Below, piece after piece: positions 7,683 to 62,504 of a stretch of 64,000 nt of DNA. Origin of the DNA: Candidatus Nitrosotenuis uzonensis (GTDB lineage: Archaea; Thermoproteota; Nitrososphaeria; Nitrososphaerales; Nitrosopumilaceae); assembly GCF_000723185.1 (NCBI RefSeq), contig NZ_CBTY010000008.1:358677-422676 (forward strand). The letters run 5' to 3'. Position 1 is the first letter of the stretch; each line of letters begins with the position of its first letter. Below the pieces are notes generated by a model. The model had not been told where the DNA came from. It worked only from the letters and a program-made list of their open reading frames with translations, and did not search any database. The position numbers and the translations under genes are program-made.

Positions 7683-9275
7683 CTAAAATACCTCTTTTGG
7701 CCTGTACTCTCCGAATACCTGACGGAACGTATTGCTTATCTCACCTGTTGTTGCATACAGTTTTACCGAATCAAGGATAAACGGCATCAAATTGTCTGAT
7801 TTTTCTGCTGCGCTCATTAATTTTGATAATGCGTGCTCGACCTTTTTTCCGTCACGCTCTGCCCTGAGCTTTTTTATTGCCTTTCGCTGCTTTTCCCCTA
7901 CAGAGTCATCTATTCGTAATAATTCCTGCTTTGATTCTGCCTCATCTGAGAATTTGTTTACGCCGACTAGCACACGCTCGCCAGAATCAACCTCTTTTTT
8001 GAGGCGATATGCATTCTGTCTTATTTCAGACTGGAAAAACCCTTTCTCTATTGCCTTGAGCGCACCTCCCATTCTTTCTATTTGCTTGAGATATTTCCAT
8101 ACGCCATCCTCAATTTCATCACACAGATACTCTAGGTAGTAAGAGCCTGCCATCGGATCCACCGTCTTTGTGATTCCACTCTCATGCGCCACAATCTGCT
8201 GTGTTCTCAGCGCGATCTTTGCGGATTCGGCAGTAGGCAACGCAAGTGCTTCGTCTCTCGAGTTGGTGTGAAGTGATTGGGTACCGCCCAACACTGCTGC
8301 CATCGTCTGGATTGCAACTCGTACTATGTTATTATCGGGTTGTTGGGCAGTGAGCGACTCGCCGCTGGTCTGAGTATGGAATTTTAGCTGCATTGATTTT
8401 GGGTCTTTTGCATGGAATCTCTCCTTGAGAATTTTTGCGTATACTTTGCGTGCAACTCTAAACTTGGCTATCTCCTCGAAAAACTCGATCGTGCAGCAAA
8501 AGAAAAACGAGAGTCGCGGTGCAAAGTCATCAATTTTCAGTCCTCGTTCAAGACAGGTCTCAATGTACGCGATTGCGTTTGCTATGGTAAACGCTACTTC
8601 TTGTGTTGCAGTGGAGCCTGCCTCCCTCATATGATATCCTGAAATTGATATTGGATACCATTGAGGGACATGCTTTGCACAGTATGCAATCATATCGCCA
8701 ATTAATCTCATTGACGGTTGCGGTGGGTAAATGTACGTGTTTCTTGCGATATATTCTTTGAGGATATCATTTTGTGTTGTACCCCTCAGATCCACACTTT
8801 TGAATCCCTGTGATTCGCCAACTGCGATATAGTATGCCAAAAGTGTAGATGCTGTAGAATTAATTGTCATCGATGTACTCACTTTACCAAGCGGGATTCC
8901 GTCAAACGCAGTAAGCATGTCTTTAAGTGAGGCTATTGAAACGCCGACTTTGCCAACCTCGCCTTCTGCCTGAGGTGCATCTGGGTCATGACCAATCTGG
9001 GTTGGGAGATCAAAGGCCATTGAAAGTCCTGTCTGCCCCTTTTCCAGCATGAACTTGAATCGTTCGTTTGTCTGCTTTGCATCCCCAAATCCAGAATACT
9101 GTCGCATCGTCCAGAATCTCTCCCGGTACATGTCTGCATGTATACCCCGCGTGAACGGGTACTTGCCAGGTTCCTCCTTTGGTCTTTTTTTGGCAGATTG
9201 ATGGTATACCCTATTTACTGGAAAGTTTGAATCTGTGAGAATTTCTTTTGGTTTCTGTTTTTCTGTTTGTGCCAT
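7683..9275 (-). CDS. mcmA1: Methylmalonyl-CoA mutase, large (catalytic) subunit
   Basis: 530 residues covering only the TIM-barrel substrate domain; the B12-binding domain is encoded separately at 13473-13895, as usual in archaea. Family motifs include RQYSGFGDAKQTNERFKFML near residue 55, AFDLPTQIGHDPD and TSGESLTAQQPDNN. It carries out the adenosylcobalamin-dependent rearrangement between (R)-methylmalonyl-CoA and succinyl-CoA. Upstream, 4 nt away, is the MeaB-type chaperone gene; directly downstream is the epimerase. In an autotrophic ammonia oxidizer the direction is toward succinyl-CoA in CO2 fixation (established pathway knowledge). Confidence 0.95.
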   Translation of the reverse strand: MAQTEKQKPKEILTDSNFPVNRVYHQSAKKRPKEEPGKYPFTRGIHADMYRERFWTMRQYSGFGDAKQTNERFKFMLEKGQTGLSMAFDLPTQIGHDPDAPQAEGEVGKVGVSIASLKDMLTAFDGIPLGKVSTSMTINSTASTLLAYYIAVGESQGFKSVDLRGTTQNDILKEYIARNTYIYPPQPSMRLIGDMIAYCAKHVPQWYPISISGYHMREAGSTATQEVAFTIANAIAYIETCLERGLKIDDFAPRLSFFFCCTIEFFEEIAKFRVARKVYAKILKERFHAKDPKSMQLKFHTQTSGESLTAQQPDNNIVRVAIQTMAAVLGGTQSLHTNSRDEALALPTAESAKIALRTQQIVAHESGITKTVDPMAGSYYLEYLCDEIEDGVWKYLKQIERMGGALKAIEKGFFQSEIRQNAYRLKKEVDSGERVLVGVNKFSDEAESKQELLRIDDSVGEKQRKAIKKLRAERDGKKVEHALSKLMSAAEKSDNLMPFILDSVKLYATTGEISNTFRQVFGEYRPKEVF

Positions 9276-9279
9276 GATA

Positions 9280-10203
9280 TCACTTTATGACCGATGCTGT
9301 TATTTTATCTGCCGCTTCAAATGGGTCCAGTTCTTTTGCCTGTAGTCTTGTAAGATATTTTGCATAGTTTTTATCAGATTCCAAGAGCTGATCGACTCTT
9401 GTCTTTACATTATTTATAACAATATCTTTTAGCTCGGTTTCCAGTCTTTTTTGTTCCCTTTCTTTTTGAGATTTTTTCGTTTTTTCCATCAGATCTTTAA
9501 GCTTTTTTGCAAACTCAACAATTCCCTGATTCTTTATAGTCGAGGTCTTTAGAATTATAGGATTTCTCTCAGTCATACCAATGAATTCTTTTACTGATTC
9601 GAACAGCTGGGATGCACCGTCAAGGTCTGCCTTGTTTACAACATAGATGTCTCCGATCTCAGTGATGCCAGCCTTTATTGTCTGAATATTATCTCCAGTA
9701 TGTGGATTGAACACAACCACCGTGATATCTGCAATGTTGGATATTTCTACTTCAGTCTGCCCCGCACCAACGCTCTCAATTATTATTGGATCAAATCCTG
9801 CATACTCTAGCACCCTGATGCTGTTCCTAATTGAGCGCGATATTGCGCCAGTAGCTCCTCGCGACGCTATGCTCCTAATATACAGTCCAGAATCAGTCGA
9901 CTCTGTCATGCGTACACGGTCGCCAAGAATTGCTCCTCCTGTGAGATGGCTTGTCGGGTCCACCGCAAGAACCGCTGCCTTGTAACCGAGCTTTTTGAGC
10001 GCAATTGAGGTCTTGTTTATCAGTGAGCTTTTGCCAGCTCCTGCAGGCCCTGTAATTCCTATTACCGTGGACTTGCCAGAGCTCTTGAAAATTTTTTTTA
10101 CAATCTGTCTGGCTTTTTTTTCATCATTTTCTATGATCGATATTGCCTTGGCAATTGCACCGCGTTTTCCTTTTTTTAATTCGGATAAAAGATCCAACCA
10201 CAT
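9280..10203 (-). CDS. meaB: MeaB/ArgK-type G3E GTPase, mutase chaperone
   Basis: 307 residues. The P-loop GPAGAGKSS is near residue 51, AVDPTSHLTGGAILGDRVRM follows (Switch region), ESVGAGQTEVE is the Switch II-type motif, and NKADLDG is the guanine-specificity motif. A C-terminal helical dimerisation arm is present. MeaB GTPases load and protect adenosylcobalamin on methylmalonyl-CoA mutase. Adjacency to mcmA1, with 4 nt between them, supports this over the older label of arginine/ornithine transport kinase. It is the first gene of the operon. Confidence 0.93.
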   Translation of the reverse strand: MWLDLLSELKKGKRGAIAKAISIIENDEKKARQIVKKIFKSSGKSTVIGITGPAGAGKSSLINKTSIALKKLGYKAAVLAVDPTSHLTGGAILGDRVRMTESTDSGLYIRSIASRGATGAISRSIRNSIRVLEYAGFDPIIIESVGAGQTEVEISNIADITVVVFNPHTGDNIQTIKAGITEIGDIYVVNKADLDGASQLFESVKEFIGMTERNPIILKTSTIKNQGIVEFAKKLKDLMEKTKKSQKEREQKRLETELKDIVINNVKTRVDQLLESDKNYAKYLTRLQAKELDPFEAADKITASVIK

Positions 10204-23680: not shown

Positions 23681-24052
23681 CTAGTGGACGTGGTCGTTAT
23701 CAGGTCTTTGGCGAATTTTATCAGAGGTGTTTTTCAGCTCATCAATTGACCAGGAGATTTCACCAATATCTTCTTGTGTGAGAGTATCATCCCACTTGTC
23801 AAGAACAGTCTTTGAAATCTGACATGCATGATACAGCAGATTCCAGTACGGATGGTGTTCCGCAGTAGTGTATGCAAGCTCTACTACATCCTCAAGCCCG
23901 CTTTTGGCTCTTGATATAGAGCTTGAGTTCTCTCCAAAAATTCTGATGATCCCTCCGTCAACATAAGAGTCGACTTTGAGCATCACACCCTGCCTAGAAT
24001 ATGAATCCACTAGATCTTGAAGAGATTTAAAAAAATCATCAAAACTTGCCAT
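23681..24052 (-). CDS. Hypothetical protein, coupled to the CoA-binding protein gene
   Basis: 123 residues, soluble, mixed alpha/beta. The N-terminal half (VMLKVDSYVDGGIIRIFGENS) looks like a small beta sheet, the C-terminal half is helical, and a His-rich end (NDHVH) closes it. No family recognised. The ATG shares one base with the TAA of the preceding gene (TAATG), so translation is coupled to the CoA-binding protein. Confidence 0.7.
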   Translation of the reverse strand: MASFDDFFKSLQDLVDSYSRQGVMLKVDSYVDGGIIRIFGENSSSISRAKSGLEDVVELAYTTAEHHPYWNLLYHACQISKTVLDKWDDTLTQEDIGEISWSIDELKNTSDKIRQRPDNDHVH

Positions 24053-24465
24053 TAGAACAACCGCTGATGCTCAGCTAGCATGCACCTGTTAAAGACTACC
24101 TTTATTCCGGCACTTTTTGCAAGGTTTTCTGCTTCCTCATTGTGTATTCCTTCTTGCAGCCAGATTACCTTGGGTTTTTTCTTTATTGCCTCCTGGATTA
24201 CCGGTAGGACTTGATCTGAGGGCCTAAAGACATCCACAATGTCAATCTGCTCAGGCACTTCTTGCAGACTTGGATAGCACTTTCTTTCAAGTATGCTGTC
24301 TGCGGTGGGATTCACAGGTACGATGTTGTAGCCGTTCTCAAGCAGGTATTTTGGAACATAGTTTGCAGCCTTTTCTTCGTTTTTTGACATTCCCACCACT
24401 GCTACGTTCTTTAGTGACAATATACTGCGTATTTCATCATCAGAGTGTGGATCTTTTTCCATCAT
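24052..24465 (-). CDS. CoA-binding domain protein (YccU type)
   Basis: 137 residues. The Rossmann-like CoA-binding domain starts at HSDDEIRSILSLKNVAVVGMSKNE, the usual N-terminus of this family, followed by YPSLQEVPEQIDIVDVFRPSD and WLQEGIHNEEAENLAKSAG. I chose ATG 24465 because an ATTATATC box lies 24-27 nt upstream and the family starts there. An ATG at 24555, overlapping the start codon of the divergent gene, would add 30 residues without homology. Proteins of this family bind CoA or a related nucleotide; the physiological role is not known. Confidence 0.8.
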   Translation of the reverse strand: MMEKDPHSDDEIRSILSLKNVAVVGMSKNEEKAANYVPKYLLENGYNIVPVNPTADSILERKCYPSLQEVPEQIDIVDVFRPSDQVLPVIQEAIKKKPKVIWLQEGIHNEEAENLAKSAGIKVVFNRCMLAEHQRLF

Positions 24466-24553
24466 ATTGTATCTGCTTGCAAGTGATATAATTTCTTTGG
24501 AGTCCAGCACTTCATTGGAAAGTTCTTTATAGGAAAAATCCAGAACATCAACC

Positions 24554-25090
24554 ATGGAAGAAGAACCAAAAGACATCATAGTTCTTGGTGCGATCAAAAG
24601 AGGAGCAAAGAAATTCGGTAAGATAAGGGACAAGACAGGCATAGAGCCAGAAGAGCTAAACAAAATACTTGAAAAGCTTGAAGAGCGCGGCCTCATACGG
24701 GTGGAGAAGAAAAAAGGATTCCTTGGAGGCGAAAAGATAGAATTGCATGTAACCGAAAAAGGAGACAACGAGCTGCAACAGAGAATACACGAAATGGAAC
24801 AAAAATGGAACCAGATGGTGCAGCTATACAAGCTAGGCGATAAAAAGAAGCTTGAAGAGTTCATGGGTAGTAACAAATCGGACTTTGCAATGATGATGTT
24901 CTTTGGAATAATGAATATGATGATGTTCTCAATGATGTTTTCGATGATAGGTGCGTCAATGCATGATTATGTTCCTGCAGACCAGGTTCCTCCTGGCGCC
25001 GAGAACCAGCCTGGTGATGCCGGAGGCGATATGGGCGGGGATGCAGGCGTAGGAGATACTGGCGGCTACGACATCGACATCGGCTTTTAA
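24554..25090 (+). CDS. wHTH protein with Met-rich hydrophobic helix
   Basis: 178 residues in three parts. Residues 1-75 are a winged helix (GAIKRGAKKFGKIRDKTGIE...LEERGLIRVEKK). Residues 76-105 are a charged linker helix. Residues ~110-138 are a hydrophobic helix in which almost half the residues are Met (FAMMMFFGIMNMMMFSMMFS). An Asp/Gly-rich acidic tail ends the protein. It looks like a DNA-binding domain tethered to the membrane, or one that oligomerises through a Met-rich helix. The TTTATAGG box is 25 nt upstream. A metal-sensing role for the Met cluster is possible but unproven. Confidence 0.75.
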   Translation: MEEEPKDIIVLGAIKRGAKKFGKIRDKTGIEPEELNKILEKLEERGLIRVEKKKGFLGGEKIELHVTEKGDNELQQRIHEMEQKWNQMVQLYKLGDKKKLEEFMGSNKSDFAMMMFFGIMNMMMFSMMFSMIGASMHDYVPADQVPPGAENQPGDAGGDMGGDAGVGDTGGYDIDIGF

Positions 25091-31898: not shown

Positions 31899-32459
31899 AT
31901 GTCGCAAGACGTCAAGCAACCGCTCGATAATTTCAAACATGTTTCACTGTTCTGGACCGACCTGTTACATTTGATGTCAGGCAAGCCAATAGCGTTAACA
32001 TCGGTTGGCCCGATGAGAAATTGGGCAAACGATATGAAGAAAATCATGACAGAGGCAATAGACTCCTACGAGGATATTATCGAGTTCAACCAAAGGCTTA
32101 CAGAATACTACAAGCAGCTATCGGAGACGTGGCTTGAGGCACAAAAAAAGGTAAATGCCAAGATGCCAAGCATTCCGCAAGACTCTGAAAGCCTTGAGGC
32201 ATACAAGAGAATTTGGATTGACATTTTTGAGAATGATTTTACCGGACTGTTTGACTCTGAAAAGTTTGCTCTGAACTATGGCAAGATGGTATCATCTGAG
32301 CTGGAAATAACAAAACACTGGGAAAACATGTTAAACGTGATGCTAAACTCCGCAAGGCTGCCAACAAGGAAGGAAATTGACGAGATATACAAAGAGCTTC
32401 ACGAGCTAAGAAAGCGAGTAAAAAAGCTGGAAAGGAGGGAAAAACAAGATGAGAAATGA
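31899..32459 (+). CDS. phaE: Class III PHA synthase subunit PhaE
   Basis: 186 residues, all helical, with long coiled-coil stretches (a C-terminal LHELRKRVKKLERREKQDE). It is shorter than the bacterial PhaE (about 350 residues) but holds the conserved WxDIFENDF-type region. It overlaps phaC by 11 nt, the pairing that defines class III synthases, in which PhaE activates the catalytic PhaC. The product is polyhydroxyalkanoate stored as granules. Confidence 0.85.
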   Translation: MSQDVKQPLDNFKHVSLFWTDLLHLMSGKPIALTSVGPMRNWANDMKKIMTEAIDSYEDIIEFNQRLTEYYKQLSETWLEAQKKVNAKMPSIPQDSESLEAYKRIWIDIFENDFTGLFDSEKFALNYGKMVSSELEITKHWENMLNVMLNSARLPTRKEIDEIYKELHELRKRVKKLERREKQDEK

Positions 32460-33507
32460 GACAATAGACCCAAAGATAGTAGAAGAGTTTCTCAGCTTTA
32501 CGCGAAATGTGGCAGAAGCGCCAAAACTTGTCCCCGCACCAGATGAGATCAGCCTAGAGTCGACTCCGTATGACATAGCATACGAAGAAGACAAGATGCG
32601 GCTGCTTCACTTTAGGCCCACAGTCCAATCGCAGACAAAGGTGCCTTTTTTGATAAGCTATGCCATAATCAACAGATACCACATACTTGACATACAGCAG
32701 GAGAAGAGCTGGGTCAGAAAACTTCTTGAGAGTGGGATAGATGTCTACATGATAGACTGGGGCAACCCATCAAACATTGACAAGTATCTTGACTTTGACG
32801 ATTATGTCAACACATACATGGAAAACTGTGTTGATTTTGTGCGAAAGGAATCAGATGTAAGAAATGTCTCACTCCAGGGCTACTGTACGGGCGGCACGAT
32901 AGCCACGATATACGCTGCATTGCACCCTGAAAAAGTACGAAATTTGGTTGTCACCGCGCCTGTAATCGACGGCTGGAAGGATACAACAGTAGTTAGCAAC
33001 ATGGCAAAACATATTGATGTCGACAAGCTCGTAGAATCAATTGGGAACATGCCACCTGAGTTTATGTACTATTGTTTTTCAATACTAAAACCATTCGAGC
33101 AGGGTCTTGAAAAATACTATAAATTCTTCAAGAACATACACGATAAGAATTTTGTTGACAGCTTTTTGCGTGTGGAAAAATGGCTGAGCGAGACACCTCC
33201 CATTCCTGGTGAATTGTTCAAGCAGTGGATAAAGGACATCTACCAGGACAACCTTTTGATTCAGAACAAGATGTTCGTAGGAGGCAGACAGATAGACCTG
33301 CAAAAGATAACCATGCCGATTTTCATTCAAATAGCAGTTGGTGACCACCTAGTATCCCCCGAATGCAGTATGCCCTTGTATTACGCAGTTGCAAGCCAAG
33401 ACAAGACACTTCGAATCTATCCTACCGGCCATGTCGGCATGATTGCAAGCTCATATTCACAAAAACAGATTCTGCCTGAGCTCTGTCAGTGGATAAAAGA
33501 AAGATAG
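32449..33507 (+). CDS. phaC: Class III PHA synthase catalytic subunit PhaC
   Basis: 352 residues, alpha/beta hydrolase fold. The lipase-like box GYCTGG carries the nucleophile Cys146; Asp near 299 (VGDHLVSP) and His near 328 (TGHVGM) complete the triad. It polymerises (R)-3-hydroxyacyl-CoA, chiefly 3-hydroxybutyryl-CoA, which is also an intermediate of the CO2-fixation cycle in this organism. The start codon lies inside phaE, so the subunits are translated together. The length is typical of class III. Confidence 0.93.
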   Translation: MRNETIDPKIVEEFLSFTRNVAEAPKLVPAPDEISLESTPYDIAYEEDKMRLLHFRPTVQSQTKVPFLISYAIINRYHILDIQQEKSWVRKLLESGIDVYMIDWGNPSNIDKYLDFDDYVNTYMENCVDFVRKESDVRNVSLQGYCTGGTIATIYAALHPEKVRNLVVTAPVIDGWKDTTVVSNMAKHIDVDKLVESIGNMPPEFMYYCFSILKPFEQGLEKYYKFFKNIHDKNFVDSFLRVEKWLSETPPIPGELFKQWIKDIYQDNLLIQNKMFVGGRQIDLQKITMPIFIQIAVGDHLVSPECSMPLYYAVASQDKTLRIYPTGHVGMIASSYSQKQILPELCQWIKER

Positions 33508-39402: not shown

Positions 39403-42713
<3,311 letters not shown>

Positions 42714-48174: not shown

Positions 48175-49314
48175 TTGTCAATTAAGAACATAACTGTGCT
48201 CGGCTCTGGCGTGATGGGTCATGGAATAGCTCAGGTTAGCGCGATGTCAGGATACAATGTAGTTCTGCGCGATATCGAGCAGCAGTTTCTTGACAAAGCC
48301 ATGGAAAAGATAAAGTGGAGTCTTGAGAAGCTTGTAACAAAGCAAAAGATAACTTTAGCAGAATCAGATGCCATATTTGCTCGTATCACAACCAAGGTAG
48401 ATCTCAAAGAGGCAGTAAAGGATGCAGACATGGTAATAGAGGCAGTTCCCGAGATAATGGACCTGAAAATGAAAGTATACGCAGAGCTTGACAAGGTAGC
48501 AGACAGCAATGTCATATTTGCCTCAAACACCAGTACTCTGCCAATAACTGAGATAGCCAACACTACTAGCAGGCCGGACAAATTTGTTGGAATTCATTTT
48601 TTCAACCCGCCGCAGCTGATGAAGCTTGTAGAGGTCATTCCCGGGCAAAAGACAGACCCACAGATAGTCCAGGCCACAGTCGACTATGTCAGGTCAGTGA
48701 AAAAGGAGCCGGTAATATGCAAAAGAGACGTTCCAGGATTTATCGTTAACAGGCTGTTCATTCCGATGGTGCATGAGGCATGCTGGCTAAAACAGAGGCA
48801 GAATCTGACACTAGAGCAGATAGATTCGGCAGTAAAATTCAGAATGGGCTTTCCAATGGGCATATTTGAGCTTGCAGACTTTACAGGAATGGACGTCATC
48901 CACAAGGCCACAATAGAGTTGCATCTCAGAGACAAAAAAGTAATCTTTCCACATCCCGAAATAGAAAGACTGTACAATGAGAAAAAGCTTGGACAAAAGT
49001 CAGGTGAAGGATTCTACAAGTATTCTGATGAAAAATATGAAAGAGTACAGCTTGATGAAGGTCTTGCAAGCAAATGCAACCCAATTCAGCTTGTTGCAAA
49101 CATTGTAAACAATGCTGCATGGCTTGTCACAAACAAGGCAAGTGATATAGAAGAGATAGAAAAGGCAGCGCAGCTAGGATTAGGACTAAAAAAGCCAATC
49201 TTTGAGACTGCAAGGGAGTTTGGAATGAAAAATATAGTGTCCGAGCTTGCCGAGTTAGCAAAAAAGCATGGACAGTTTTACGAGCCCGACCCACTGCTTG
49301 TCTCTATGCAGTGA
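48175..49314 (+). CDS. 3-hydroxyacyl-CoA dehydrogenase
   Basis: 379 residues from a TTG start. The N-terminal Rossmann domain has GSGVMGHGIAQ near residue 9, and HFFNPP (catalytic His), SNTSTLPI and GFIVNRL are the expected motifs; the helical C-terminal domain is duplicated. It oxidises (S)-3-hydroxybutyryl-CoA to acetoacetyl-CoA with NAD, the late part of the 4-hydroxybutyrate branch in thaumarchaeal CO2 fixation. The crotonase domain found fused in other archaea is absent here, so the hydratase must be a separate protein. Confidence 0.93.
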   Translation: MSIKNITVLGSGVMGHGIAQVSAMSGYNVVLRDIEQQFLDKAMEKIKWSLEKLVTKQKITLAESDAIFARITTKVDLKEAVKDADMVIEAVPEIMDLKMKVYAELDKVADSNVIFASNTSTLPITEIANTTSRPDKFVGIHFFNPPQLMKLVEVIPGQKTDPQIVQATVDYVRSVKKEPVICKRDVPGFIVNRLFIPMVHEACWLKQRQNLTLEQIDSAVKFRMGFPMGIFELADFTGMDVIHKATIELHLRDKKVIFPHPEIERLYNEKKLGQKSGEGFYKYSDEKYERVQLDEGLASKCNPIQLVANIVNNAAWLVTNKASDIEEIEKAAQLGLGLKKPIFETAREFGMKNIVSELAELAKKHGQFYEPDPLLVSMQ

Positions 49315-58327: not shown

Positions 58328-58407
58328 GATTTTGCTGGATTCCACCCTCAAATAAAGATTTGAGATCAGTTGATCCAATTAAATATTACAAGACTAGTGT
58401 CAATTCC

Positions 58408-60183
58408 ATGTTAAAGTTTCAAAACAAGGTCGTCCTGGTTACTGGAAGCGGCACCGGCATAGGCCAAACTGTCGCAAAACTGTTTGCCGAAAACGGTGCA
58501 AGCATAGTCATCTTAGGTAGAAGAAAAGAGCCGCTTGAGGAAACAAAAAAAATTCTTGAAGAGATAATTACAAGGGTAAAAAGCGGGGCAAAGGTATGGC
58601 TGTTCTCAGGAGTTGACGTAAGTGATGAATCCGGAGTTTCAGAAATGTTTGATTCTTTGAAAAACTCCAATGTGAACGTTGATGTGGTTGTAAACAATGC
58701 AGGTGTATCAGGGCCTGTCACATGTTTTTCAAACGCTCCACTTGAAGAATTCAAAAGTACCGTTGCAATTCATCTTACCGGAACATTCTGGACGTCAACC
58801 CAAGCTCTCAAAGTTATGAAACCTGGAGCCAAAATAGTCACGATTTCAACATTCTTTACAGAAGAAAGGCCATTTGAGCAAAGACCGTACAGGTTTCGCA
58901 GTCCATACACAGCATCACAGGGAGCAAAGAACAGGCTTGCCGAGCTAATGTCCTGGGAGCTTACGGATAGAGGAATTGTATCGATTGCTACAAACCCGGG
59001 CCCAGTGCATTCTGATCGAATTTACAAAACTGTGTATCCAAAAGCAGCTGCAGAATTTCTACGAACAAGTGGATTTGAAGATCTCTCACCTGCAGAAGTA
59101 GATGTTGCAAACAGAGAAATAGTTGGATTGCTCGGCGAGGATGAAAAAACAGTAAAGGAAGGAATAATGAAAGCTGCGACAAGTGTAGCCAAGATAAAAA
59201 GCGGCGACGTGGAGAAAATTTCTCAGACATTAGGCAGACTGCTTTCCAAAATACAAGAGATTGCAGAAAAAGTCCAAAAAAATACATCATTTATGATTGC
59301 AGACAGGCAATTTCTCTCCCAGATGCAGGTAGCGCAAACGGTTATGACGCTGGCAGATGATGATATTGCAAAAATTCTAAACGGCAAGGTGATTCCAGGG
59401 GACAGGGTATTTTATCCGGTAAAACCACAAATTGCCACGGCCGCGCCAGTGGTACAACCAAACTTTGCTTCTCAAGTTTTTGTCTTCGCAGTTGATGCGA
59501 CCGACAAATCAGATGTCGACAGAGTCTTGTTTTTGGCACAACATGTTGAAAGCAACGGGGCAAAGGCAGTATGCCTTGTTTCTGGCGCAATGCCAAAAGA
59601 CCAGCAAGAGGCAATAAGCTCAAAATTCCATTCCCACATAGTAAATCTGAAAAACCCCGATGAGATTCAAAGGTGGCTTGGTGCAGCAAAAGGCATAGGC
59701 AAGATTGCGGCTGTAATCCACATCACAGGTAAGGTGCCAGAGAACATCAAGATAGTAGACACATCACGCGCGTCATGGGATGCTCTAGTTGACAAATTCA
59801 TAAATACGCCTGCAACAGTACTGCAGTCCGCCTTTGAGATGTTTGTACCAGGAGGCAGAAAAGATCCACGCCTATACAAGGATGCCTTTGGCACGACTGT
59901 CATCATAGGCCCAGACATGCCCACAGGTGCAAAGATATCTGGAGCTGACAGAGCACGTGTGGAAGTATTCAGAGGGGCACTAAGGCCATTTACCACCACA
60001 GTAAATCAAGAGTTAAGCGACGTTCTCAAGTCCAAAGTAAGGTCGTTTTTAGTCTTGCCGGGAGGAGTCGACGGTAAGGAATCAGACAACAAAAAGATTG
60101 CCCATGCCATAAACTACTTTGTAACAGAGCAGGCAAGAAGCTCGTCTGAGGTAACTTTCTGCGTCGATGAAACGCGCGAATGA
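58408..60183 (+). CDS. Tandem-domain SDR protein
   Basis: 591 residues. Domain 1 (about 1-270) is a short-chain dehydrogenase/reductase: TGSGTGIG at 12-19, NNAG near 97, a Ser before FFTEE, and Y167-x3-Q171 where the usual catalytic Lys is Gln. Residues ~275-360 are a helical linker, and domain 2 (about 370-591) is a second, degenerate Rossmann unit without the Gly-rich motif (AVDATDKSDVDRVLFLAQHV). The double-SDR layout resembles halves of bacterial malonyl-CoA reductase (Mcr). The start at ATG 58408 fits the TTAAATATTA box. The next gene overlaps by 4 bp. Confidence 0.82.
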   Translation: MLKFQNKVVLVTGSGTGIGQTVAKLFAENGASIVILGRRKEPLEETKKILEEIITRVKSGAKVWLFSGVDVSDESGVSEMFDSLKNSNVNVDVVVNNAGVSGPVTCFSNAPLEEFKSTVAIHLTGTFWTSTQALKVMKPGAKIVTISTFFTEERPFEQRPYRFRSPYTASQGAKNRLAELMSWELTDRGIVSIATNPGPVHSDRIYKTVYPKAAAEFLRTSGFEDLSPAEVDVANREIVGLLGEDEKTVKEGIMKAATSVAKIKSGDVEKISQTLGRLLSKIQEIAEKVQKNTSFMIADRQFLSQMQVAQTVMTLADDDIAKILNGKVIPGDRVFYPVKPQIATAAPVVQPNFASQVFVFAVDATDKSDVDRVLFLAQHVESNGAKAVCLVSGAMPKDQQEAISSKFHSHIVNLKNPDEIQRWLGAAKGIGKIAAVIHITGKVPENIKIVDTSRASWDALVDKFINTPATVLQSAFEMFVPGGRKDPRLYKDAFGTTVIIGPDMPTGAKISGADRARVEVFRGALRPFTTTVNQELSDVLKSKVRSFLVLPGGVDGKESDNKKIAHAINYFVTEQARSSSEVTFCVDETRE

Positions 60184-60626
60184 AGAAATTCTCAGAGCTC
60201 AAAGTAGGAGAAGAGTTCTTTTCCACATGTACATTCTCAAAAAAGGAACTCGAATCGTATCTGGCATTCTCTAGGATAAAGAATACAATTTTTGATGACG
60301 ATGAATATAACTCTATAATTTCAGGTAGAGCCATAATTGCAAGAATGGAAGGAGAATTTACAAGGCTGAGCCAGATTTACGGCAATATGATTTTGCTGTA
60401 CGGAATGGATGGAGATACAAACTGGGAAAACCGCAATACGAGATTCCTAAAACCGCTTCACATAGACGAAATTCTGAAGATAAAATTCACAATTTCTGAT
60501 AAAAAAGAAATCGATGATGAATTTGGAATGATTGCAGTAGACTTTGAAGGCAAGAAGGAAAACGGAGATCTAGTCGTGATATCAAAAAAGAATCTATACC
60601 GAATTAAAAAAGAGCCGCCAAGATAG
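60180..60626 (+). CDS. MaoC-like hotdog protein without catalytic dyad
   Basis: 148 residues with the MaoC dehydratase pattern VGEEFFSTCTFSKKELESYLAFSR ... NTRFLKPLHIDEILKIKF ... EGKKENGDLVVISKKNLYRI. The hydratase motif S-G-D-x-N-P-[IL]-H is replaced by S-R-I-K-N-T-I-F, so the Asp and His needed for (R)-hydratase activity are gone. It may bind an acyl-CoA without hydrating it, or act as a subunit of the SDR protein, since its ATG lies in the last codons of the SDR gene (ATGA overlap). Confidence 0.7.
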   Translation: MKKFSELKVGEEFFSTCTFSKKELESYLAFSRIKNTIFDDDEYNSIISGRAIIARMEGEFTRLSQIYGNMILLYGMDGDTNWENRNTRFLKPLHIDEILKIKFTISDKKEIDDEFGMIAVDFEGKKENGDLVVISKKNLYRIKKEPPR

Positions 60627-60818: not shown

Positions 60819-61577
60819 TCACACGTTAAATGCGTCCAAGAACAACTTTATTGCAGCGATAACTATAACACCACAGATAAGCAGCCTTATGCTGTTTTCT
60901 TTTAATTCGACTGAGAGTCGTGCACCAAGAAGACCTCCCCCAAATGCGCCGATTGATAAGAGTAACGCATATTCAAAATCAGAATGTCCCAATAGAGTAT
61001 GAGCTACCAGTCCAGACAATGATGAGAAGATGAGAATTAGCTGAGATGTAGCAGTCGCATTTTTTACTAGCATTCCTAGTCCAATTATCATTAAAGGTAC
61101 GAACACAATTCCTCCTCCGATACCAAAAAAGCTTGAAAGAATTCCGGCAAAAAAGCTGATGGCAGCAGAAGCAACTGCCATGTATTTTGGGACTGAAGAC
61201 TTGGGCTCAATCTTTCGTTTTATGAAAAGATAGTAGCACGATGCGATTAGTATTATCCCGAATGTGATCTTAAAGAATGCTGGGGTCACCTGTGCTGAAA
61301 TCAATGCGCCAATTACAGTTCCCGGAACTGAAAGTAAGCCAAGTCGAAGGCCAATTTTATAGTCTACTCGTTTCTGCTTTGCGTATGATGCACTAGCGGC
61401 AATTGAATTACTAAACGCGGCAAACAGACTGCTGCTTGCAGTAATTGTATGTGGAACGCCAAGGAATGTTAGTACAGGCACGACTATTATTCCACCTCCA
61501 AGACCAATTATAGAGCCAACCACACCTGCAGCAAAACCAAGTGGGATCAACCATATGATGTCAAACACGATTAACAC
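60819..61577 (-). CDS. TauE/SafE-family anion transporter
   Basis: 252 residues with seven or eight TM helices in two inverted halves. Each half has the family motif: VVGSIIGLGGGIIVVPVLTFLG near residue 20 and GILSSFFGIGGGIVFVPLMI near 140. These transporters export or import sulfite, sulfonates or related anions. No sulfur gene is next to it. The GTG at 61577 was kept, although a GTG at 61568 would fit the upstream box better. The transcript is separate from the kinase gene. Confidence 0.9.
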   Translation of the reverse strand: MLIVFDIIWLIPLGFAAGVVGSIIGLGGGIIVVPVLTFLGVPHTITASSSLFAAFSNSIAASASYAKQKRVDYKIGLRLGLLSVPGTVIGALISAQVTPAFFKITFGIILIASCYYLFIKRKIEPKSSVPKYMAVASAAISFFAGILSSFFGIGGGIVFVPLMIIGLGMLVKNATATSQLILIFSSLSGLVAHTLLGHSDFEYALLLSIGAFGGGLLGARLSVELKENSIRLLICGVIVIAAIKLFLDAFNV

Positions 61578-61613: not shown

Positions 61614-62504
61614 TTATTTTGGAAGAAGTATTGAGAAGGTAGTGGGGTTGCTGGTAACGTTTATTGTTCCTTCATGCTGCTGAATTATGCTTTTGACTGT
61701 CGGTAGCCCAAGTCCGGTTCCTCGTGACTTGGTAGTAAAAAGTGGCTCGAAGATTTTTTCTAGAAGGCCATCCGGTATCCCCGGTCCTGAATCCTCTACT
61801 TCTATGCAAACCGTGCCGCTCGTTTGGATGAACCGTATCACTACATCGCCAGAATTGTCCATCGCCTGGATGGAGTTCATTATCAAATTTGTAAATACTG
61901 CTTCGATTTTTTCTGCATCACAATAAACCAATACATCTTTGTCCGGTACATGCAGCTTGACATCATCTGGGACAACAATCTTTCCTATTGCGGATTTGAG
62001 TATTTTACGTAAAGAATACTCATCGCAGTGCAATGGCGATATACGTACAAAGTTAAGAACTTGGTCTAATTGAAAAACCAGTCTGGAGGATGCAGCATCT
62101 ATTGTGGCAAGAAGATTTTGGAGTTCGACTGGAATACGTGGCGCATGTTTTATTTTTGCAATTTCTACGGTATTTTTAATTATTGCTAACGGATTTCGCA
62201 TGTCGTGTGCTAGGCGAGCAGACATCTCACCTATCGCAGAGAACCTTTCTGATTTGAAAAGCTCTGACTGAAAACGACTAAGATCAGATATTTTTTTTGT
62301 CATCTCATCCAATAACCAATCGCGTTGCTCTCTTATTTCCTCGAATTTGGCAAGTTTTCTTTCAAGTGTGACAAGTGCCCTGCGATTGATACGATTCTGT
62401 TCTTCCAAACGCTGCTTTTCAGTCTCCAAGCGTTCTATCTTGTTCAAAAGTTGGCATTTTTCATCTACAGACAGATGTATTGCATATGTTTCCCCCAAAG
62501 CCAA
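61614..62504 (-). CDS. Cytosolic histidine kinase with N-terminal coiled coil
   Basis: 296 residues. Residues 10-75 are a coiled coil (KCQLLNKIERLETEKQRLEEQ...), HisKA spans ~85-155 with the H-box LAHDMRNPLAII, and HATPase_c spans ~170-296 with N-box NLIMNSIQAM, G1 DSGPGIP, F-box FEPLFTTKSRG and G2 GTGLGLPTVK. There is no TM helix or sensory domain, so input probably comes through the coiled coil. No response regulator is adjacent. It is similar to the kinase at 29675. The start is TTG. Confidence 0.9.
   Translation of the reverse strand: MALGETYAIHLSVDEKCQLLNKIERLETEKQRLEEQNRINRRALVTLERKLAKFEEIREQRDWLLDEMTKKISDLSRFQSELFKSERFSAIGEMSARLAHDMRNPLAIIKNTVEIAKIKHAPRIPVELQNLLATIDAASSRLVFQLDQVLNFVRISPLHCDEYSLRKILKSAIGKIVVPDDVKLHVPDKDVLVYCDAEKIEAVFTNLIMNSIQAMDNSGDVVIRFIQTSGTVCIEVEDSGPGIPDGLLEKIFEPLFTTKSRGTGLGLPTVKSIIQQHEGTINVTSNPTTFSILLPK

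Follow-up and report, generated by a model that had tools for sequence, protein, structure and literature searches.

Bifunctional malonyl-CoA reductases (MCRs) of Chloroflexus, Roseiflexus and Porphyrobacter are fusions of four SDR domains with ORFs of about 1,210-1,310 aa. The N-terminal half (SDR1-SDR2) is a malonic semialdehyde reductase, and the C-terminal half (SDR3-ED-SDR4) reduces malonyl-CoA in SDR3 and carries an extra domain (ED) between SDR3 and SDR4. In the Roseiflexus enzyme (RfxMCR), Ser731, Tyr749, Lys753 and Arg799 are essential, CoA binding depends on Arg746, Arg785 and Leu795, and Tyr743, Arg746 and Tyr749 bind the carboxylate of the malonyl group, with reprotonation of the CoA thiolate proposed to proceed via Tyr743-Arg746 (PMC10470521). 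The semialdehyde site in SDR1 of the same enzyme is formed by Thr165, Tyr172, Arg175, Tyr178 and Lys182 (PMC10470521). The crenarchaeal version of the 3-hydroxypropionate/4-hydroxybutyrate (3HP/4HB) cycle uses the Sulfolobales malonyl-CoA/succinyl-CoA reductase (K15017), an ASADH-like enzyme that performs the step proposed here with an unrelated fold, that of the semialdehyde dehydrogenases. Another tandem SDR acting on acyl-CoA is the yeast peroxisomal MFE2 (PDB 2et6), which also has a hotdog hydratase and in which both SDRs are active.

In the thaumarchaeal cycle, malonyl-CoA reductase activity was found in extracts of N. maritimus with no gene assigned to it (PMC6038301, 2018; PMC6964070, 2020); the initial annotation of the locus had called this enzyme hard to assign. 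The steps of succinyl-CoA reductase and succinic semialdehyde reductase are also without genes (PMC6038301). A marker set from 2026 has no malonyl-CoA reductase gene for the thaumarchaeal cycle variant (PMC12894919), and none of the papers after 2020 that were covered names a thaumarchaeal MCR gene, although one outside that literature may do so. Each of six genomes of ammonia-oxidizing archaea (AOA) encodes only two PF02774 proteins, one of the ASADH type and one of the ArgC/LysY type as judged by reading their sequences; therefore no duplicated Sulfolobales-type reductase was seen. The single-copy ASADH-type protein might moonlight as MCR. At least one aldehyde dehydrogenase was present in the six AOA genomes checked. 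Work attributed to Otte in 2015 reportedly described a separate malonic semialdehyde reductase in Nitrosopumilus.

We analysed a window of 64,000 nucleotides from Candidatus Nitrosotenuis uzonensis, which encodes a 591-aa protein at 58408-60183 on the forward strand. The ATG at 58408 was taken as the start instead of the upstream TTG at 58360, because orthologs begin with MLKF. Pfam matched the protein to SDR at aa 7-203 only, with nothing beyond (PF00106, E 4e-34), and a search of NCBIfam gave no specific family above cut-off. An AlphaFold2 model (mean pLDDT 88.5, pTM 0.89) was built from alignment A1, which holds 22 sequences with overall identity to the window protein down to 45%. In the model, aa 1-205 and about 306-340 form an SDR core, the residues between them (206-305) form a helical insert, and aa 356-590 fold into a second Rossmann-like domain. 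The catalytic core, encoded at 58408..59022 (+; aa 1-205), is delimited by PF00106 and the model and contains the motifs TGSGTGIG and NNAG; by analogy with MCR, its Arg38 would take the position of the arginine for the 2'-phosphate of NADPH. The insert (59023..59322, +) takes the position of the extra domain of MCR-C, as judged from the secondary structure of the model and the whole-chain superposition on MCR-C. The degenerate second Rossmann/SDR-like domain (59473..60180, +; aa 356-591) is by structure the counterpart of SDR2/SDR4, and has neither TGxxxGxG nor YxxxK.

Structure prediction and superposition on Mcr, proposed as a check when the locus was first annotated, placed the MCR halves before all other structures. 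In a Foldseek search against PDB, the best 25 matches were all MCR chains, from N- and C-halves (E 7e-27 to 3e-18). TM-scores by query were 0.67-0.74 for MCR chains, followed by 0.55 for MFE2 and 0.34-0.38 for single SDRs. With VIA-align, MCR-C gave Z 36.0 over 517 residues at 3.3 Å and MCR-N gave Z 34.0 over 490 residues; the values were Z 26.8 over 431 residues for MFE2 and about 27 over about 255 residues for single SDRs. In the model, the relative placement of both domains thus matches that in MCR, beyond the SDR fold alone. The C-half of MCR has the same domain order, a helical insert in the same place and a dead second SDR, but identity over the structural alignment is about 17%, and the archaeal protein is a stand-alone half instead of a part of a four-SDR fusion. 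The N-half shares the tandem architecture, YxxRxxY, the catalytic Thr and a GP(I/V)xSDRI motif, but its insert is smaller, and SDR1 needs Lys182 and acts on an aldehyde.

The active-site stretch (58849..58929, +; aa 148-174) is invariant in orthologs and aligns to Ser731/Tyr743/Arg746/Tyr749/Lys753 of RfxMCR (PMC10470521). It comprises T148, F150, E153, P160 and Y161-x2-R164-x2-Y167-x3-Q171-G-A-K174. To compare these positions, MCR residues were located in 60 bacterial MCRs of full length that are encoded on genome contigs. Thr148, Tyr161, Arg164, Tyr167 and Arg204 of the AOA protein stand at matching MCR positions, and their counterparts are near-invariant in the 60 MCRs. The invariant Tyr161-Arg164 corresponds to the carboxylate-binding pair Tyr743-Arg746 of MCR (Tyr172-Arg175 in SDR1). 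Arg204 (59017..59019, +), also invariant, corresponds to Arg785 of SDR3, which follows the GPV(E/H) turn and takes part in CoA binding, and to Arg215 of SDR1. Two further arginines of MCR were less clear: Arg219 lies near the position of Arg799 in the extra domain as a loose match, and Arg1164 of SDR4 has no clear AOA counterpart, since the alignment, itself weak, has a gap there.

At the Lys position of YxxxK, all 41 orthologs, drawn from three families, have Gln171, and therefore neither a sequencing error nor chance explains it. The register is also correct, since the spacing from Q171 to G189 is +18, equal to that from K182 to G200 in MCR SDR1. A FabI-type Tyr-x6-Lys reading (Tyr167-Lys174) was rejected, because the classical +18 spacing to the turn Gly is that of Gln171 and does not fit Lys174. 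The Ser/Thr-Tyr-Lys triad is accordingly incomplete, with Thr148 and Tyr167 kept and Lys changed to Gln171. The stretch EQRPYRFRxPYTxxQGAKN is nearly invariant across the same 41 orthologs. Alignment A1, in which overall identity goes down to 45%, shows no variation at Q171, Y161, R164, Y167, T148 or R204, nor over most of the NPGPVHSDRIYKTVYPKAA stretch; Gln171 is therefore fixed and under selection. The initial annotation had described a tandem SDR whose catalytic Lys is replaced by Gln171, and both parts of that description were borne out by the Pfam match, the modelled second domain and the orthologs.

The combined motif YxxRxxYxxx[KQ] was present in 41/41 AOA proteins (as Q) and twice in 59 of the 60 MCRs, and was found in 1 of 69 other SDRs. 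The one exception is L217, a single-domain SDR of Chloroflexota with YxxRxxYxxxK, and the motif is therefore rare without being exclusive. The AOA protein and the malonyl-CoA-reducing SDR3 also share a loop of six residues ahead of Tyr161 (F..E[KR]....PY), which is absent from SDR1; its pattern was found in 38/41 AOA proteins, 42/60 MCRs and none of the 69 others. L217 and two more single-domain Chloroflexota SDRs (L214, L218) resemble MCR in having R-x2-YxxxK together with a G-(D/E)-R motif, and may represent the kind of single-domain relatives from which MCR arose. Full-length bacterial Mcr was also encountered on two contigs titled Klebsiella pneumoniae MAG (L075, L123), whose organism labels look wrong. 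Mcr homologs on three contigs labelled Planctomycetaceae or Candidatus Gracilibacteria (L055, L069, L073) reflect either wide spread or misbinning.

Among 300 genomes of the phylum, full-length homologs of the 591-aa protein were confined to the order of the window, and were present in 50/50 genomes of that order among those listed; outside the order, the sample contained ordinary SDRs only, matching the first 200 residues. Of 250 genomes of the order, 155 gave a full-length SDR match and 150 a match to archaeal AmoA (PF12942), and every AMO-bearing family sampled had orthologs. In the high-quality subset (160 genomes, >= 90% complete and <= 5% contaminated), the SDR gene and AmoA were each found in 124 genomes: 122 had both, 34 had neither, and four were discordant (SDR gene only in G382 and G499, AmoA only in G424 and G426), all of them multi-contig drafts. 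This co-occurrence indicates that the SDR gene is universal in AOA and absent from the sister families lacking AMO. As AOA share many lineage genes, it fits carbon fixation but is no proof of it. Two bacterial samples, one of 301 Chloroflexota genomes and one of 299 genomes from the phylum of Luminiphilus, contained no full-length protein of the AOA type, and tblastn against plasmids with MCR or the AOA protein returned ordinary SDRs only. A literature search for AOA proteome evidence on the SDR protein found nothing.

When a profile of the AOA proteins was run against eight genomes bearing Mcr, the best match was an SDR domain of Mcr in seven, among many SDRs per genome. In a tree of SDR cores with the motif columns removed, AOA grouped with MCR against 55 other SDRs with support of 94/87. 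The clade was lost when the single-domain SDRs scoring best with the AOA profile were added, and an AU test did not reject a tree in which AOA and MCR were held together (p 0.11). The phylogeny, to which the initial annotation had looked for a decision, thus spoke for the kinship in one sampling and not in the other. Profile comparison of the second domain to SDR2/SDR4 gave no significant match, and SDR2 and SDR4 scarcely find each other either. A phmmer score of 125 bits to MCR was dropped as evidence, because two domains contribute to it; taken singly, an MCR domain scores 63 bits and an ordinary SDR 71. Since the AOA protein differs from bifunctional MCR in two defining features of the family, the Lys and the fusion, it was not classed as a member. 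It is an analogue of bifunctional MCR in structure and probably in function, and perhaps its sister lineage.

We propose with moderate confidence that the 591-aa protein serves the 3HP/4HB cycle as an NADPH-dependent acyl-CoA reductase, most likely the missing MCR, possibly acting also on succinyl-CoA. It is the best MCR candidate found here, a stand-alone, Lys-less, MCR-like tandem SDR; its substrate and the direction of its reaction we infer from fold, domain order, residue conservation and distribution. The likeness to halves of bacterial bifunctional MCR, suggested when the locus was first annotated, is strongly supported by whole-protein structure, substrate-binding residues and distribution. 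The further step to an MCR function shares this support, but is weakened by the Gln at the Lys position and by the loss of the AOA and MCR clade in the second sampling. The same two points, together with neighbours of the SDR gene that are not cycle genes and the many lineage-specific genes common to AOA, which make co-occurrence with AMO unspecific to carbon fixation, would fit an enzyme peculiar to AOA that acts in some other pathway, or a scaffold without catalytic activity, in either case with a retained or convergent MCR-like shape. We consider this unlikely, because the remaining active-site residues are all invariant at 45% overall identity, the nucleotide-binding motif of the SDR core is intact, and the domain orientation of the whole protein is that of MCR.

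As a malonyl-CoA reductase, the protein would bind NADPH in its N-terminal SDR core, hold the free carboxylate of malonyl-CoA with Tyr161, Arg164 and Tyr167, and hold CoA with Arg204 and the helical insert. Thr148 and Tyr167 would polarise the thioester carbonyl, and hydride transfer would expel the CoA thiolate, which would be reprotonated via Tyr161-Arg164, the route also proposed in the bacterial enzyme. The malonic semialdehyde would then leave and be taken up by the separate reductase described in Nitrosopumilus. Gln171, in place of the ribose-binding Lys, could still form a hydrogen bond with the nicotinamide ribose but would be unable to lower the pKa of Tyr. This exchange may make the protein a poor alcohol dehydrogenase while leaving thioester reduction possible, so that a second, alcohol-forming reduction would be disfavoured. 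Such a preference would accord with the presence of a separate semialdehyde reductase in AOA. The Lys-to-Gln change also bears on how far thioester reduction needs the SDR triad.

It is possible, although we hold it doubtful, that one NADPH-dependent reductase serves both malonyl-CoA and succinyl-CoA, with the Tyr-Arg relay transferring protons and Gln blocking over-reduction. If true, a dual reductase would fill two gaps of the 3HP/4HB cycle with a third, independent lineage of malonyl-CoA reductase. An MCR function as such would already make this single, universally conserved gene a marker of the pathway in AOA, which rank with the most abundant CO2 fixers of both sea and soils. A substrate restricted to succinyl-CoA, or an aldehyde such as succinic semialdehyde bound in the same carboxylate pocket, appears unlikely. 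Both succinyl steps are among those without assigned genes (PMC6038301), MCR-N and MCR-C both recognise a carboxylate through the Tyr-Arg pocket, and the aldehyde-reducing MCR-N superposes nearly as well as MCR-C (Z 34 against 36). Against this, the AOA loop is common to the thioester-reducing SDR3 and not to SDR1, and the loss of Lys should harm aldehyde reduction most.

The SDR gene is followed by a gene for a 148-aa MaoC/PhaJ-like hotdog protein (60180..60626, +), the two being joined by a 4-base ATGA overlap (60180-60183). The model of the hotdog (pLDDT 75.9) matched MaoC/PhaJ hydratases with TM up to 0.74 and Z of 14-15. The positions of the Asp-x4-His dyad are occupied by Ile33 and Phe38 in a phmmer alignment to PhaJ1, confirming the earlier description of a MaoC-like partner that lacks the hydratase dyad. 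The hotdog gene adjoins the SDR gene in 31/35 loci of the family of the window. A wider sample did not show it in four divergent members of the family, nor in 5/5 genomes of a second AOA family, and in a few genomes of a third family it was elsewhere in the genome or broken up. The coupling of the two proteins stated in the initial annotation therefore holds for part of the family of the window and fails in other AOA families. This patchy distribution indicates that the hotdog is not required and lies outside the core function; in the lineages that have it, its role may be to stabilise the SDR enzyme or to bind an acyl-CoA. An MFE2-like (3R)-hydroxyacyl-CoA dehydrogenase that works together with the hotdog protein, or an acetoacetyl-CoA reductase of the PHA pathway in a PhaB/PhaJ-like pair, would suit the MFE2 layout of tandem SDR plus hotdog, the PhaJ-like fold and the PHA synthase gene (PhaC) at 32449-33507 in the window, but is highly improbable, since structure clearly favours MCR over MFE2, the YxxxK of both active MFE2 SDRs is replaced by Gln171 in the first domain and has no counterpart in the dead second one, the hotdog lacks its dyad and is missing from many genomes, and three AOA genomes keep the SDR gene without a PHA synthase.

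The cycle genes first noted in the window are there in a loose sense, namely those for methylmalonyl-CoA mutase (7683-9275), MeaB (9280-10203) and 3-hydroxybutyryl-CoA dehydrogenase (48175-49314), but they lie about 10-50 kb from the SDR gene and form no operon with it. A 274-aa protein encoded at 24052-24876, in the window with these genes, is a partial CoA-ligase-like protein; it weakly resembles ADP-forming acetate/3-hydroxypropionate-CoA ligases in their CoA-binding part. Downstream of the hotdog gene, a TauE/SafE-family membrane protein is encoded on the opposite strand (60819..61577, -). Its gene converges on the SDR gene at 29/41 loci (L037-L040 and L042 among them), many loci having short flanks, and does so in three AOA families, suggesting an ancestral gene order rather than an operon. 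A homoserine-dehydrogenase-like gene follows in two AOA families, and in the window a small histidine kinase gene (61614-62504) adjoins the SDR and TauE genes. A 5-kb ORF-poor stretch is an rRNA operon with 23S and 16S genes (39416-42694, -), whose archaeal 23S rRNA gene contains a match to a group I intron at 40440-40689 (68 bits against a gathering threshold of 50).
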